Source: a virus. From it: 42,542 nucleotides of DNA. The translations under genes and the position numbers were made by a program. Shown here piece after piece: positions 11,655 through 42,542 of this stretch. Position 1 is the stretch's first letter; every line of letters begins with the position of its first letter. The stretch is from positions 1 through 42,542 of the IMG/VR virus record IMGVR_UViG_3300035121_000036; one strand, 5' to 3'. The notes below the pieces were generated by a model. It saw only the letters and a program-made list of their open reading frames with translations, was not told the DNA's origin and made no database searches.

Positions 11655-12005
11655 ATGAGCGAGCCATTCATCACCGCCGAAGAGTCCACTTCACCCTTCT
11701 GGGGTGTGTGGGTGCTGCTGTCCACGCTGTGCGTGAAGCTCGCCGACGGCACGATCGTGCCGCACTCGTTCGTGATCACCACATCTAGCGGCTACCGCGC
11801 CACCCTGCCCGCGTGTGGACTGGAGCACGCGGACGGGTTCATTAACTGCACGCGCAAGATTGATGATCGGCGCCAGCATGCCGGCATGAGCGTAGATGCG
11901 TGGCTGAAGCACTGTCGGACGCATTGCCACTCGTACCACCTGCCACTTGCTCAGGATTTTCGCGACCGTGTGCAGAAGACATACGGGAAACGCCCGACCG
12001 GATGA
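11655..12005 (+). CDS. Hypothetical protein, 116 residues, Cys/His-rich
   Basis: The protein contains several cysteines and histidines in its second half (CGLEH, INCTRK, HCRTHCHSYH), which could hold a metal ion. It has its own strong promoter and is followed by a hairpin, so it is a single-gene unit. I do not recognise it. Strong early promoter plus small size fits a host-takeover or regulatory protein, by inference. Confidence 0.65.
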   Translation: MSEPFITAEESTSPFWGVWVLLSTLCVKLADGTIVPHSFVITTSSGYRATLPACGLEHADGFINCTRKIDDRRQHAGMSVDAWLKHCRTHCHSYHLPLAQDFRDRVQKTYGKRPTG

Positions 12006-12053
12006 CCCCGGTCTCGTGACCAGGAGAAGTATCCTGGCAAGCCCATAGACGAC

Positions 12054-12085
12054 AGCAGACCCCCGCTGCCCGGCGGGGGTCTGCT
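12054..12085 (+). terminator. Hairpin before the primase-helicase gene
   Basis: A perfect 13-bp stem (12054-12066 with 12073-12085) has a 6-base loop. No T run follows, so it may attenuate rather than stop transcription into the primase gene, which has no obvious promoter of its own. Confidence 0.6.
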
Positions 12086-12115
12086 CATGCCCAACTACAT
12101 ATGGATGGAGAATCC

Positions 12116-14536
12116 GTGGACAACGGTACCAAGATTTCTGCGGTAATCGCATATCTTGTGGGACTTTACGGCAACAACCCCCAGGGGTTGTTGTGGATCG
12201 GCGGGCACGCGGACGGCTGGAAAGGTCGAACGTTCGCAGCGCCGGACACGGCAGCGCAATACGCCATCGAGCTGGACGAACGGGGCGGAGCCGGGGTCTA
12301 TCACCGGTCGACCACCCTGGCCGTGAAGCCGGAGCGGCGCGGAGAAGCTGACGATTCAGCCGCTGTGTACTATTTCGCGCTGGACGCGGATGTCCGCGGG
12401 CCGGGGCATAAGGCGGAGAACCTCCCGGCAGGCCGGGAGGACATCGAGCGACTGATCGAGAAGGCCGGCTTTCCGGCGCCCACGTCCTGGGTGTTCTCCG
12501 GTGGTGGCTTCTACCCGCAATGGCGCTTCGCCGAGCCGATCGACGTGCATGACGCGGAGATGCGTGCCTGGGTCACCGAGTCGTTCACGCAGATCTCCGC
12601 GCACTTCCTGGCTGCGGCCGGTGAGCTGGGCTGGAAGCTGGACAATGTCCGGGACTTGGCCAGGGTGTTCAGGCTGCCGGGCACCACCAACCGCAAGACC
12701 GACGAGCACGTCATTGCGCAGTTGCTGTCCGCCGACGGCAAGGCCTGTGATCTCGGAGTGCTGGCATCACTGGCCCGGCCGAATCGCGGGGTTGTAACTC
12801 CTAGGTCGGTGCCGGCCAGCGACCCCGCGCCGACCAGCGATGATCTTTTCGACGATCCGACCGACGAACGTCGCTTCACTCCCGAGCAGGCCAAGAAGTT
12901 CGTCCGGGACGCGCGCGCGAAGCTGGGCGCCACCGAGTCCGGATTCAACGCGGCAATCAATGACTTCGCCATGACATGCGCGCACTTCCCCTGGCTGGTC
13001 ACCCGAGACAAGTGCGCTCAGTTCGTCATCGACCAACTGGGCGACAAGACCGGATGGACCGAGCCGGACCGTGACGACATCGCGACGATCAACAGCGCCT
13101 ACAGCGCGACGGAGGCCGGCAAGAGTTGGGTGGCGGTGGAAGCCCCGCCCGTCCAGGCCGCGAAGACGACGGACGGGGCTGGGGATGAGGGTACGCCGAT
13201 CACCCTTCCACCCCCCGGCCAGCCGGTCCAGGTGGCCCGTGAGTTGATCAAGGGAATGCCGGCCACGGACGGCGCGCCACATTGGTCCTGGTGGCGGGAG
13301 GACTTCTACCGGTGGGCAGGTGCGCACTGGGAGGCCGTGGAGCCCGCGGTCATCCGGCAGTGGCTGTACCGGCAGACCGCGGACGCCTCCTACTTCACGC
13401 CGGCCAAGAAGGAGGGCGAGGCGCCGACCGTCACCCCCTGGGCGCCTACCCGTAAGAAGATTGGCGACCTCATGGAGGCGGTGGGCGAAGGGGAGCTGCA
13501 GCGCCAGGGCGACGAGGACCGAGTCATTGCCGCGGCCAACGGGGTGGTGAATCTGCGCAGCAGGGAGCTGACCGCGCACACGCCACGACTGTTCAACCTG
13601 TTCAGCCTGCCGTTCGACTACGATCCCGGCGCCACCGCGCCGATGTGGCAGGCCTTCCTGGACAGCGTCCTGCCGGGCGATCGGCAGTCGCAGGACTTCC
13701 TGGGCGAGTGGTTCGGGTATGTGCTGAGCGGACGCACCGATCAGCACAAGATCGCCGCGCTGATCGGTAAGAAGAGGTCTGGCAAAGGCACCATCGCGCG
13801 GGTCCTGGGCGCGCTCGCGGGCAAGGACAACGTTGCCGGCCTGAATCTGGGCACGCTCTCCGGCACGTTCGGGCTCGAGCCGTTCGTAGGTGCCGCCCTG
13901 GCCGTGGCGTCGGACGTGCGCTGGAAGTCACGCAACATCGGGGACGCGGTACAGATCCTGCTGGAGGTGTCCGGTGAGGACGTGGCCACGGTGAGCAGGA
14001 AGAACCGGAAGGCCTGGAAGGGCAAGCTCGGTGTGCGGTTCATGCTCATGAGCAATGACACGCCTACCTTCTCGGACCGGTCCGGCGCCCTGGTGGATCG
14101 GATGATCTACGTGTCTTTCCGGCAGTCGTTCTACGGCCGTGAGGATGTGGCGCTGACCGACAAGCTACTGAGCGAGCTGCCAGGCATCTTCAACTGGGCG
14201 CTTGACGGTCTGGAGCGGCTGTCCGGTCGTGGGCGCTTCACTCAACCGGACAGCGGTCTGCACGAGCAGGAGGCGACACGCAGGCTCGCCGATCCGGTGG
14301 GCGCTTTCCTCGAGGATTGGTGCACGCTCAGTAGTGAGGTGGAGTTCCCTCTTGACCATCTTTATCTGAAGTTCCGGAATTGGTGCGAATCGGAGGGGCG
14401 TGACAGGGATTCGACCACGAAGGAGATTTTCAGCCGAGATCTCCGGAATAAGGTGGAAGGCCTGAGTTCGCGGCGGATCAAGGAGAATGGGAAGTTCGTG
14501 ACCCTTTTGAGGGGTATCGACTGTTCTGCGCTCTGA
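12116..14536 (+). CDS. P4-type primase-helicase (AEP primase plus D5/SF3 helicase)
   Basis: This is an 806-residue protein. The N-terminal third has archaeo-eukaryotic primase signs: YFALDADVRG (DxD metal site), FSGGGFYPQWRF (motif II-like; the usual H is not clear) and a VRDLARVFRLPGTTNRKT block. The C-terminal third is an SF3 helicase with Walker A GKKRSGKGT, Walker B region ALAVASDVRW and sensor segment FMLMSNDTP. Proteins of this kind open the origin, lay primers and unwind for P4-like plasmids and phages. GTG 12116 is preferred over ATG 12101 because GGATGGAG lies correctly before it. An iteron region follows directly, so the protein is the likely initiator; part of its C-terminus may bind the iterons. 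Confidence 0.9.
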   Translation: MDNGTKISAVIAYLVGLYGNNPQGLLWIGGHADGWKGRTFAAPDTAAQYAIELDERGGAGVYHRSTTLAVKPERRGEADDSAAVYYFALDADVRGPGHKAENLPAGREDIERLIEKAGFPAPTSWVFSGGGFYPQWRFAEPIDVHDAEMRAWVTESFTQISAHFLAAAGELGWKLDNVRDLARVFRLPGTTNRKTDEHVIAQLLSADGKACDLGVLASLARPNRGVVTPRSVPASDPAPTSDDLFDDPTDERRFTPEQAKKFVRDARAKLGATESGFNAAINDFAMTCAHFPWLVTRDKCAQFVIDQLGDKTGWTEPDRDDIATINSAYSATEAGKSWVAVEAPPVQAAKTTDGAGDEGTPITLPPPGQPVQVARELIKGMPATDGAPHWSWWREDFYRWAGAHWEAVEPAVIRQWLYRQTADASYFTPAKKEGEAPTVTPWAPTRKKIGDLMEAVGEGELQRQGDEDRVIAAANGVVNLRSRELTAHTPRLFNLFSLPFDYDPGATAPMWQAFLDSVLPGDRQSQDFLGEWFGYVLSGRTDQHKIAALIGKKRSGKGTIARVLGALAGKDNVAGLNLGTLSGTFGLEPFVGAALAVASDVRWKSRNIGDAVQILLEVSGEDVATVSRKNRKAWKGKLGVRFMLMSNDTPTFSDRSGALVDRMIYVSFRQSFYGREDVALTDKLLSELPGIFNWALDGLERLSGRGRFTQPDSGLHEQEATRRLADPVGAFLEDWCTLSSEVEFPLDHLYLKFRNWCESEGRDRDSTTKEIFSRDLRNKVEGLSSRRIKENGKFVTLLRGIDCSAL

Positions 14537-14849
14537 GCGTTGCAGGGTCGTTGCAGGGTCGAACCGGTACATTTCGGGGCACCCTGCAATACCCTGCAAC
14601 GCCTGTTTTCCCAGGTCACCTACTATTTCTTTACTCTTATTGCAGGGTATGCAAGGTAAAACAGTACTCAGAATAGAGAGTCCCTTCGCTACTTCATGAT
14701 CATTACTTTTTGCGATGTTAGAAGTGAGTAGCGTTTGACCCTGCAACACCCTGCAATCCTGCGCCCAATACTGGCCGTGAGCTGGGAAAACAGGCGTTGC
14801 AGGGTGCCGGGGACACCCTGCAACGCTATGGATGTGCTATACTTGGTTC
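14537..14849. other. Candidate replication origin with nine iterons
   Basis: Nine exact copies of TTGCAGGGT or its complement start at 14540, 14551, 14581, 14591, 14640, 14738, 14748, 14797 and 14815. They flank an AT-rich core (about 14620-14730), the most AT-rich stretch I noticed in the window. A perfect 24-bp inverted repeat (14591-14614 with 14782-14805) brackets the core. Iterons beside an AT-rich unwinding region and directly downstream of a primase-helicase are the classic form of a replication origin. No protein-coding gene fits here. Confidence 0.85.
14815..14843 (+). promoter_or_regulatory. Iteron-overlapped leaderless promoter
   Basis: TATACT (14838-14843), preceded by an extended TGC, lies six bases before ATG 14850. 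The last iteron (14815-14823) covers the -35 position, which is otherwise poor. Iteron binding could therefore switch the operon, as in plasmid self-regulation. Confidence 0.65.
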
Positions 14850-15299
14850 ATGGAATTACTCAACGTAGCCGACCTTCCGCAACGGGAACTGGATCTCATC
14901 ACCCGTGCCGGCGCGCACTGCCTGGCCGACGAGAGCACGCCGGAGGCGGTCCGGTTCCGGCGCGGCGTGACCGACCTGGATGCCGCGCGGCTGATCCACC
15001 GGATCGAGCGCGGCGCGCTGGTCGTCCCGGCAGGCCGTGCCTGGCACATGATCGGCGGATGGGACGACATCCACCTGACTCGCATCGTGAACGAGTGCCT
15101 GCGGCTGGGGCTGGTGGAGGCGAGCGTGGCGCACACCGGGCGCGACATCGTGCGCACCACGCTGAGCGCGGCGCCCGTTCATCTGCGCGTCCGTGACATG
15201 CCGGCCTGCGCCGCCGCGGATCCGGGCACGCGGTATCGCCTGGTGGTGGATCCGCGCCTGGTGGACTGCCACGCTTGTCTTGCCCGGACCGATGCGTAA
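14850..15299 (+). CDS. Hypothetical protein next to the origin, 149 residues
   Basis: ATG 14850 is chosen because the promoter's -10 lies six bases before it; an ATG at 14832 overlaps that box and is rejected. The product is helical and ends with two cysteine-rich segments (DMPACAAADPG and DCHACL) that could bind metal. No family is recognised. Its position at the origin edge suggests replication control. Confidence 0.6.
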   Translation: MELLNVADLPQRELDLITRAGAHCLADESTPEAVRFRRGVTDLDAARLIHRIERGALVVPAGRAWHMIGGWDDIHLTRIVNECLRLGLVEASVAHTGRDIVRTTLSAAPVHLRVRDMPACAAADPGTRYRLVVDPRLVDCHACLARTDA

Positions 15300-15309: not shown

Positions 15310-15696
15310 ATGGCAGTGATCGAGCGACCCAACGGAATCGCGCCCGTCCCCAGCGGCACCTATCGCTTCGGCGCGAAAGGTGGCCGGATGGCGCAGGCGT
15401 GGCAGTACGTGTGGAACCGCCTCGATCACACCACCTTCAAGAACGGGCAGGAGTTGGCGGACCTGGCGGCCAAGGAGTTCGGCGTCAAGCGCGCCAGCGT
15501 TGCCGAGATGCTGAGCCGGATGCGCAGCACGGGCGTACTGGAGCAGGAGCTGATCCCGGTGCCCACCACCTACTCCCGGGGCAAGGGCTACACGGCCAAC
15601 CGGCCGCGCGTGCACTACCGGATCGCACAGCAGACCATCTCGCTCGAGGCCGGCTTGTACGACGTGAGCCGGAACTTTTCCGAGAAAGCCTCCTGA
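15310..15696 (+). CDS. Winged-helix DNA-binding protein
   Basis: The 128-residue protein contains a helix-turn-helix (NGQELADLAAKEFGVKRASV, then AEMLSRMRSTGVLE) and a wing-like hairpin before HYRIAQQ. This is the layout of MarR- or Rep-type winged helices that bind a DNA site as a regulator or origin factor. ATG 15310 is chosen because the candidate promoter ends just before it. It may read the iterons or act as a repressor; neither is shown. Confidence 0.6.
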   Translation: MAVIERPNGIAPVPSGTYRFGAKGGRMAQAWQYVWNRLDHTTFKNGQELADLAAKEFGVKRASVAEMLSRMRSTGVLEQELIPVPTTYSRGKGYTANRPRVHYRIAQQTISLEAGLYDVSRNFSEKAS

Positions 15697-16643: not shown

Positions 16644-16810
16644 ATAGGTGTCACAAGGCTGTGCCCTGGCATGGACGCATGGTGCCGTGCGATGCGTTGC
16701 TGGTTGATGGCAAGTGTTCCGACCCTGCTTTACACCCACGGCCTGTGGATAACCCTGTGGATAACGCCCTGACCTCCGATAGAGCCTCCGATGCCTCAGC
16801 CGAAGCTTGA
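16640..16810 (+). CDS. Small Cys-containing protein, 56 residues
   Basis: GTG 16640 overlaps the previous stop (GTGA). The N-terminus (MNRCHKAVPWHGRMVPCDAL, then a third Cys) could hold a metal ion; the rest is hydrophilic and overlaps the small terminase start by 20 bases. Similar short Cys motifs recur in this genome. Function is unknown. Confidence 0.5.
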   Translation: MNRCHKAVPWHGRMVPCDALLVDGKCSDPALHPRPVDNPVDNALTSDRASDASAEA

Positions 16811-41963: not shown

Positions 41964-42535
41964 GTGAACCCACGTGCACGTGCATATGACGCGGTATGGC
42001 GCACCCTGCTGGCCGGCCACCGCGGCATGGACACCCGTGTCCGCACCATGGCCAAACGCAACATCGGCTTCATCCTCCTGCTGTCCGCCACGTGGCCGTG
42101 GGCCGGCTGGTGGCCACTACTGGCCTACGCGTCCGTGTCCATGGCCATGGCCGGCCACCGCGGTGTCCGCTACGTGGCCACGTGGTCATTCCGGCGCCAT
42201 GTCCACGAACCGGTGGCCACCGTCCTGGACAACGTGATCCGTCCGCGGACACCGGGCGGACACGGCCTTGTCCACGTGGACATCCCCCGGGACTTCCGTG
42301 ACCGCGAGGGCGCGGACATTCGTGTCCACGTCCCGATGGCGTGGCCGGCCACCAAGGAAGACATGTCCGCGGTCACGCGGACACTGGAGCAGCGCTTGGC
42401 CATCACGGACCTGACGGCCACGTGGACACTGACCGGACGTCGTCCGTACGGACACTTCACCACACCGGCCAAGCCGCCCAAGGCCGTGACGTTCGCGGAC
42501 ATGGCCATGGCCGTGGACGGCGCGGACATGTCCAA
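41964..42535 (+). CDS. TraB/FtsK-type DNA translocase, N-terminal part (continues at 1)
   Basis: GTG 41964 starts the 518-residue protein whose remainder lies at 1-1111; the frame is continuous across the repeat. Two hydrophobic stretches near residues 33-62 (NIGFILLLSATWPWAGWW and LLAYASVSMAMAG) anchor it in the membrane. A cytoplasmic alpha/beta region (VHVDIPRDFRDREGADIRVH) follows before the motor. This architecture, membrane anchor plus linker plus motor plus DNA-reading domain, is that of TraB/FtsK proteins. The start has no ribosome site, fitting a leaderless mRNA. Half-sites of the TGTCCGCGGACA motif are frequent within this part. Confidence 0.75.
42410..42535. repeat. Terminal direct repeat, right copy
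   Basis: The sequence is identical to bases 1-126. Trimming it gives a circular sequence of 42,409 bp. Confidence 0.95.
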
Positions 42536-42542
42536 AGATCGG
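42536..42542. other. Probable sequencing adapter remnant
   Basis: The last seven bases, AGATCGG, are the start of the common Illumina adapter and do not match the continuation at base 127. They are probably not part of the genome. Confidence 0.85.

Follow-up and report, generated by a model that had tools for sequence, protein, structure and literature searches.

The segment at positions 14537–14849 of the window (i.e., the whole 42,542-nucleotide stretch of metagenomic viral record IMGVR_UViG_3300035121_000036) is very probably a replication origin recognized by the phage's own primase-helicase, encoded directly upstream at 12101–14536. Two features are worth following: the helicase half of the initiator and the origin are exchanged between phages as one cassette, and a constant box lies beside iterons that vary.

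Structural genes of the siphovirus type (terminase, portal, protease, capsid, tail, and lysis genes) were all found in the window. Bases 1–126 of the record are repeated at 42410–42535, a 126-bp direct end overlap, and the second copy is followed by AGATCGG (region 42410–42542), the probable start or remnant of an Illumina adapter; the assembly thus closes as a circle of ~42.4 kb and may be taken as complete. IMG/VR classes the record as lacking end repeats, yet it is a closed circle.

Anatomy of the probable origin and its initiator

The 9-mer TTGCAGGGT occurs in nine exact copies, all within 14540–14823; in a shuffled-window control, no 8-mer exceeded four copies per 400 bp. A search of the whole genome found no exact copy elsewhere in the record, and a phage-wide role for the iteron was dropped for this reason. 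The earlier note described nine identical 9-bp iterons in both orientations, and this count stands, with plus-strand copies at 14540, 14551, 14640, and 14797 and minus-strand copies at 14581, 14591, 14738, 14748, and 14815. The 10–11 bp spacing that it reported is found for 14540/14551, 14581/14591, 14738/14748, and the dimer 14640/14650, the remaining spacings being longer. The 24-bp perfect inverted repeat is present (14591–14614 and 14782–14805; extended arms of 29 nt, 97%), as is the AT-rich core (14615–14737), with 39% GC against 65.2% for the genome. Two further features emerged: a degenerate tenth copy, which makes a tandem dimer of the iteron at 14640, and a pair of 13-bp boxes (B-boxes) at 14606–14618 and 14778–14790. 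The inverted repeat is mostly one iteron plus one B-box. With arrows for iterons and B for the box, the pattern reads > > < < B >> core << B' > <, followed by the -10 element of the next gene.

12101–14536, plus strand: initiator, a primase-helicase of 811 aa (AEP PrimPol-like domain, D5_N/DUF5906 SF3 helicase, Pox_D5-type C-terminal domain)
14540–14548, plus: iteron 1 (outer), exact TTGCAGGGT, starting 3 bp past the initiator stop codon
14551–14559, plus: iteron 2 (outer), exact
14581–14589, minus: iteron 3 (outer), exact
14591–14599, minus: iteron 4 (outer), exact
14591–14614, no strand: left arm of the inverted repeat (iteron 4 and B-box)
14606–14618, plus: left B-box, TTTTCCCAGGTCA, kept across relatives with different iterons
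14640–14648, plus: iteron 5 (inner dimer, left), exact
14650–14658, plus: degenerate tenth copy, ATGCAAGGT, its position kept in relatives
14659–14737, no strand: AT-rich core between the inner dimers, presumed melting region (GC 0.392 against 0.652 for the genome)
14738–14746, minus: iteron 6 (inner dimer, right), exact
14748–14756, minus: iteron 7 (inner dimer, right), exact
14778–14790, minus: right B-box, TTTTCCCAGCTCA on the minus strand, in reversed orientation in L016 and L048
14782–14805, no strand: right arm of the inverted repeat, 24 bp, perfect
14797–14805, plus: iteron 8 (outer), exact
14815–14823, minus: iteron 9 (outer), exact, occupying the -35 position of the next promoter

There is no DnaA box inside the origin, and the only perfect boxes lie 2.2 kb away, at 16744 and 16756. 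These two copies of TTATCCACA sit on the minus strand (16744–16752 and 16756–16764), 12 bp apart, at the 3′ end of a small ORF. Similar pairs or clusters occur 2.2–2.8 kb behind the primase in L011, L016, L048, L055, and L017, where the overlapping ORFs differ; such pairs are common among viral contigs (at least 120 stretches). A GC-skew signal at 14.7 kb had been proposed as a check of the origin, but the skew changes sign near 10 kb, at divergent transcription units, and lends the origin no support.

The initiator matches Pfam families D5_N (3.6e-12), DUF5906 (2.4e-11), and Pox_D5 (8e-7), and these alone, i.e., it is not a Rep_3-type initiator as in a classical iteron plasmid. Its sole sequence match in the PDB is the primase-helicase of SaPI5 (7ola, E 6.9e-17). 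In an AlphaFold model (mean pLDDT 76), the helicase part is closest in fold to the same protein (7ola, Z 24.2), followed by ASFV PrimPol, poxvirus D5, and NrS-1 (6k9c, Z 16.4), and residues 8–226 resemble the AEP domain of cyanophage S-2L PrimPol (6zp9, Z 12.5 over 171 residues). This structure comparison took only the top-ranked Foldseek chains, and families missing from it are uninformative. AEP domains usually carry histidine in motif II. In the primase type of the window (domain at 12101–12805), this residue is replaced by tyrosine (SGGGFYPQW), which makes AEP activity uncertain.

The earlier note stressed the lack of a DNA polymerase gene. Searches of the window and eleven relatives for Pol A, Pol B, and Pol III alpha came up empty, in line with that statement, but the primase domain of the initiator folds like a phage PrimPol. 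Together, these results leave room for more than one synthesis route, and the phage may use the host polymerase, its own PrimPol domain, or both.

Conserved layout and the exchanged cassette

About 15 relatives (phages, one prophage, and two circular plasmids) have the same cluster layout behind the same gene. The shared order is outer iterons, B-box, inner tandem dimer, AT-rich core, facing dimer, second B-box, and outer iterons; between lineages, the iteron sequence varies and the layout stays constant. For instance, the left part is > > > < in L010, L017, L009, L016, and L048, with offsets that match within ~3 bp, and the iterons of these phages are TGTGCAGGGT, TGTCCCGGGT, and TGTCCCAGAT. 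Iteron offsets are 4, 23, 34, 54, (100, 109), (197, 206), 250, and 270 in L010 and 1, 20, 31, 51, (95), (182, 191), 239, and 259 in L016. The gap between inner dimers is 67–105 bp in most relatives. In L009 and L011, the iterons are degenerate, with two exact copies each, and the L011 cluster taken alone is barely above shuffles.

The arrangement >> core << with outer sets is also found in a Micromonospora prophage (L070), in a 16.3-kb circular plasmid of Streptomyces virginiae with 11 copies of TGTTCAGGG, and in a 27.4-kb circular Pseudonocardia plasmid with capsid and terminase genes. In both plasmids, primase/polymerase and helicase are separate genes. Facing tandem dimers occur in the streptococcal satellite Javan582, in mycobacteriophage Amelie (with a shorter core), and in a Rhizobiales element.

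Iteron clusters adjoining D5-family primases were further seen in Amelie (L084, 3568–3834, 3′ of the gene) and, on the 5′ side, in Alteromonas phage R9Y1 (L081, 724–989) and two Gordonia contigs (L072, 9597–9862; L073, 9628–9866). Origins of this sort are possibly unannotated in many known phages. In an exact 8-mer test, blind to degenerate iterons, the primases of Streptomyces phages Wentworth, Dryad, and Rowa had no adjoining iteron cluster, and neither did those of TforTroy, Elva, 2972, KP13-27, and a Vibrio phage.

The relatives also bear on whether the inverted repeat is recognized structurally by the primase-helicase, as a large stem-loop. Plasmid pRN1 has an essential 100-nt stem-loop 3′ of a gene for an AEP primase, SF3 helicase, and winged helix, and phages have been proposed to share this arrangement (PMC4234260); the perfect 24-bp repeat of the window would fit. 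Yet the phages and the prophage among the relatives have 8–15 bp as their longest perfect repeat over the core, where the window has 24, and the flipped right B-box of L016 and L048 would destroy the arm. What is conserved is the position of the iterons and the sequence of the B-box. A stem-loop origin was rejected on the grounds that the arm is unconserved and flipped in two relatives, and we give it very little credence beside an origin read through its iterons.

Which protein reads the iterons was approached by comparing iteron similarity with protein similarity at 11 loci. Iteron similarity follows the helicase (r 0.86, p 0.0008) and the C-terminus (r 0.86, p 0.0004), and it does not follow the N-terminal primase domain (r -0.25), the products of 14850 (r -0.24) and 15310 (r -0.35), endonuclease VII (r -0.21), or the RecD-like helicase (r -0.06). 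A 14-locus version gave r 0.74 and 0.73 for helicase and C-terminus and -0.25 for the primase domain. Without the L012/L055 lineage, r drops to 0.39 (p 0.06–0.08), and thus it is mainly this swap that carries the statistical argument. Since the helicase and C-terminal domains are co-inherited, the correlations do not separate which of them reads the iterons.

The swap itself can be followed along the genome. The iterons of L012 and L055 (GGACCGGCA and GGACCGGTA, respectively; form GGACCGG(C/T)A) are unrelated to those of the window. L012 is 87% identical to the window in the primase domain and 48% in the helicase half; its DNA identity is 79% over 12126–13249 (86–98% at 12351–12751) and 77% from 14871. 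For L055, DNA identity is 81–90% left of the cassette (to 12135; 90% at 12004–12135), 65–73% through the helicase half, ~45% and unalignable in the origin, and 88% from 14878. This drop and recovery are seen for L012 as well. Its proteins for 14850, 15310, endonuclease VII, and the RecD-like helicase are 88%, 89%, 93%, and 83% identical to those of the window, and its helicase half ~50%. As the initiator half is diverged and the iterons are unrelated in the relatives closest by flanks, the helicase half and the origin have moved as one cassette. Its approximate limits and the features behind the origin are:

12842–14870 (about 12.85–14.87 kb), plus strand: exchange cassette of initiator helicase half and origin, with breakpoints approximately at the linker joining primase to helicase and where gene 14850 begins
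14838–14843, plus: extended -10 (TGC TATACT) of a near-leaderless promoter, ATG at 14850
14850–15299, plus: first gene of the downstream operon, 149 aa, conserved in L055 despite unrelated iterons
15310–15696, plus: the winged-helix protein of the earlier note, 128 aa, with weak Fe_dep_repress and GntR matches below cut-off

Exchange also affects the other half of the initiator, where the N-terminal primase domain is replaced between AEP types among otherwise close phages. One type is found in the window, L009, L010, L012, and L053; the Pfam Prim-Pol type is found in L011, L017, and L048 and, by similarity, in L014, L015, L016, L052, and L055. This exchange has no effect on iteron type, i.e., L017 and L009 share iterons at 12% identity in this domain. 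Co-variation and natural swaps together point to iterons that would each be read by their own initiator only. In the TGC group, residue 793 of this protein is I/V in phages with TTGCAGGGT (window, L014, L056) and T/A in those with GTGCAGGGT, a small-sample lead. The swaps are ready-made protein/origin pairs for testing which residues read an iteron, and they suggest possible competition for origins, or mutual indifference to them, among co-infecting phages, satellites, and plasmids. That an adjacent P4/D5-family primase-helicase serves the iteron origin, as the earlier note held, is supported by the Pfam matches, the SaPI5 likeness in sequence and fold, the layout, and the co-variation.

The last iteron (14815–14823) lies on the -35 site of the next gene, as had been claimed; other such promoters have TTGACG or a similar sequence there. 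The near-leaderless family occurs phage-wide (2622-, 6728-, 9960-, 10012+, 11638+, and 14833+, the sign giving the strand), with a TTGACG-like -35 in most members, an extended -10 of the form TGCTATA(C/G)T, and an ATG ~6 bases on. The same promoter is seen at 5533-, with no ATG at that distance. An iteron ends 13–27 bp upstream of the -10 in nine phages; overlap with the -35 is thus only partly conserved. Self-regulation, which had been read from the overlap, does not follow from it, as the covered promoter drives gene 14850 and not the initiator gene at 12101. With iteron 9 in place of the -35, and iterons 13–27 bp upstream of the -10 in relatives, control of the downstream operon by bound initiator is plausible.

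The iteron on the promoter of 14850 and the weak winged-helix matches of 15310 could also be taken to mean that the repeats are operators, through which one of these two gene products, as an adjacent regulator, would control the downstream operon. We consider this highly improbable. Both proteins are 88–89% identical between the window and L055, where the iterons are unrelated, and neither tracks iteron type; no homologue of either was detectable in L053, L070, L206, and L207, which keep iterons. Both were discarded as repeat readers because they are conserved where iterons change, and the winged-helix protein proposed as a site reader is very unlikely to be one, having also no detectable homologue in several origin carriers. 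Nor would operators need two facing arrays across an AT-rich core.

Recognition by the initiator, the preferred reading, would proceed in the following steps. (i) The C-terminal half of the initiator would bind the 9-bp iterons, the outer arrays gathering the protein. (ii) The inner tandem dimers, facing each other across the AT-rich core, would place two SF3 helicase rings, so that the core is opened. (iii) The AEP domain would prime and may extend, with host polymerase III probably doing most of the synthesis, outward in both directions. At the last iteron, the initiator may also control the next operon, and the B-boxes would be contacted by a partner different from the variable recognition surface, possibly a host protein.

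The constant B-box

The 13-bp B-box, consensus TTTTCSCAGSTCA, stays constant while the iterons change. With up to two mismatches allowed, only the two origin copies were found in the window. A matrix built from ten left copies was tested on 3.7 kb of held-out actinobacterial origins and found 14 sites, where the remainder of those loci would predict 0.58 (P 3e-15, an optimistic value since weak sites are among them and certain loci are kin to training loci). More independent matches come from the S. virginiae plasmid, L059, and prophage L070. By eye, GCAGGTCA was seen beside repeats in pPR2, a linear Planobispora plasmid that probably replicates through a gene of a different type (DUF927). The box was not found in Javan582 or the Rhizobiales element.

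Such constancy next to changing iterons suggests a further, likewise unchanging partner that binds there. The B-box is a clear handle on a possible host contribution. Rather tentatively, we propose that actinobacterial phages, prophages, and plasmids have in common a single modular type of origin, in which helicase half and iterons are swapped as a specificity cassette (similar to incompatibility types), and the constant B-box flanks the melting region and is bound by a conserved actinobacterial host factor not recognized in replication initiation.

Known replicons and the lifestyle of the phage

The term 'plasmid-like' used in the earlier note is a fair one, but among described layouts, the best likeness is found in PICI/SaPI origins, which lie immediately 3′ of rep and always have two iteron sets flanking an AT-rich region (PMC6092414). 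This organization, of which one PICI origin was studied in a pri-ori plasmid assay, was described as present in no other known replicon (PMC6092414). Similarly, the origin of the window lies directly 3′ of the initiator gene (first iteron 3 bp past the stop codon) and has two iteron sets around an AT-rich region, with an SF3 primase-helicase closest to SaPI5 in sequence and fold. Judged by these sequence features, it is an origin of the PICI/SaPI kind in a new setting, a complete tailed-phage genome. Unlike a PICI element, the window lacks an integrase and has terminase, portal, protease, capsid, tail, and lysis genes. Satellite Javan582 shares the inner tandem dimers, 9 bp apart across ~80 bp, but not the B-box. 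Complete tailed phages, a prophage, and circular plasmids thus also have an origin of the PICI type, which is relevant to the source of satellite replicons.

The fold of the helicase part is shared with NrS-1 and that of the AEP domain with S-2L PrimPol. Phage P4 has a second origin element, crr, and no counterpart was identified in the window. P4 alpha, with detectable homology, likewise joins primase, SF3 helicase, and C-terminal DNA-binding domain in a single protein, but its primase is of the Toprim type (PMC4234260), whereas the window initiator has an AEP fold. ORF904 of pRN1 combines AEP primase, SF3 helicase, and winged helix, with the origin just 3′ of the gene; pRN1 differs in having a stem-loop where the window has iterons, and the inverted repeat of the window is not conserved in relatives. 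The Streptomyces theta plasmids pWTY27, pFP1, and pFP11 likewise have actinobacterial iteron origins. A primase/polymerase gene is predicted in pWTY27 (PMC3583192), where, by description, the iterons are bound by a separate RepA and the iteron has been footprinted experimentally.

The description of the phage as lytic was not borne out: the window has no integrase, but it carries plasmid-like FtsK/SpoIIIE and DUF2637 genes. The FtsK/SpoIIIE-like protein (497 aa) spans the record ends (42027–42535, then 1–1111), and the adjoining DUF2637 gene lies at 1271–2323 on the minus strand. Among the collections searched, relatives of the former are found only in Streptomyces, Planobispora, and similar actinobacterial plasmids.

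A phage-plasmid life is thus possible, and the same initiator and origin might form a plasmid-maintenance replicon rather than serve lytic replication only, which we hold to be a minority possibility. The genome is a circle by its 126-bp overlap, although terminal redundancy or concatemers can also give such an overlap. FtsK/SpoIIIE relatives occur in 47 actinobacterial plasmid records and in none of 50,697 phages; DUF2637 is present in 11 of the 12 related records, and integrase is missing from as many. The 27-kb circular Pseudonocardia plasmid combines capsid, terminase, DUF2637, and FtsK with the same origin layout, but it is related in sequence only in the initiator half and one tail-region gene. 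A search for ParA found none, and no repressor was identified. Two PLSDB plasmids with this origin layout, NZ_CP053567.1 (L207) and NZ_CP108186.1 (L206), resemble satellites or phage-plasmids. Genes for capsid, connector, terminase, integrase, FtsK, and DUF2637 are found in one of them; the second encodes a terminase-family protein together with integrase and DUF2637.

The FtsK-like gene also invites the reading that the repeats are a transfer or translocation site (clt/TRS-like) for its product, given that Streptomyces Tra proteins bind repeat arrays at clt (PMC3583192). We regard this as the least credible account, as the gene is ~13 kb away around the circle, the Micromonospora prophage has iterons with no FtsK or DUF2637 match, and the repeats track the initiator. 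A second repeat cluster lies within the DUF2637 gene at 1458–1837, with CGGACACG and CGCGGACA in eight copies each, built on TGTCCGCGGACA palindromes; it could be a binding-site array or coding repeats.
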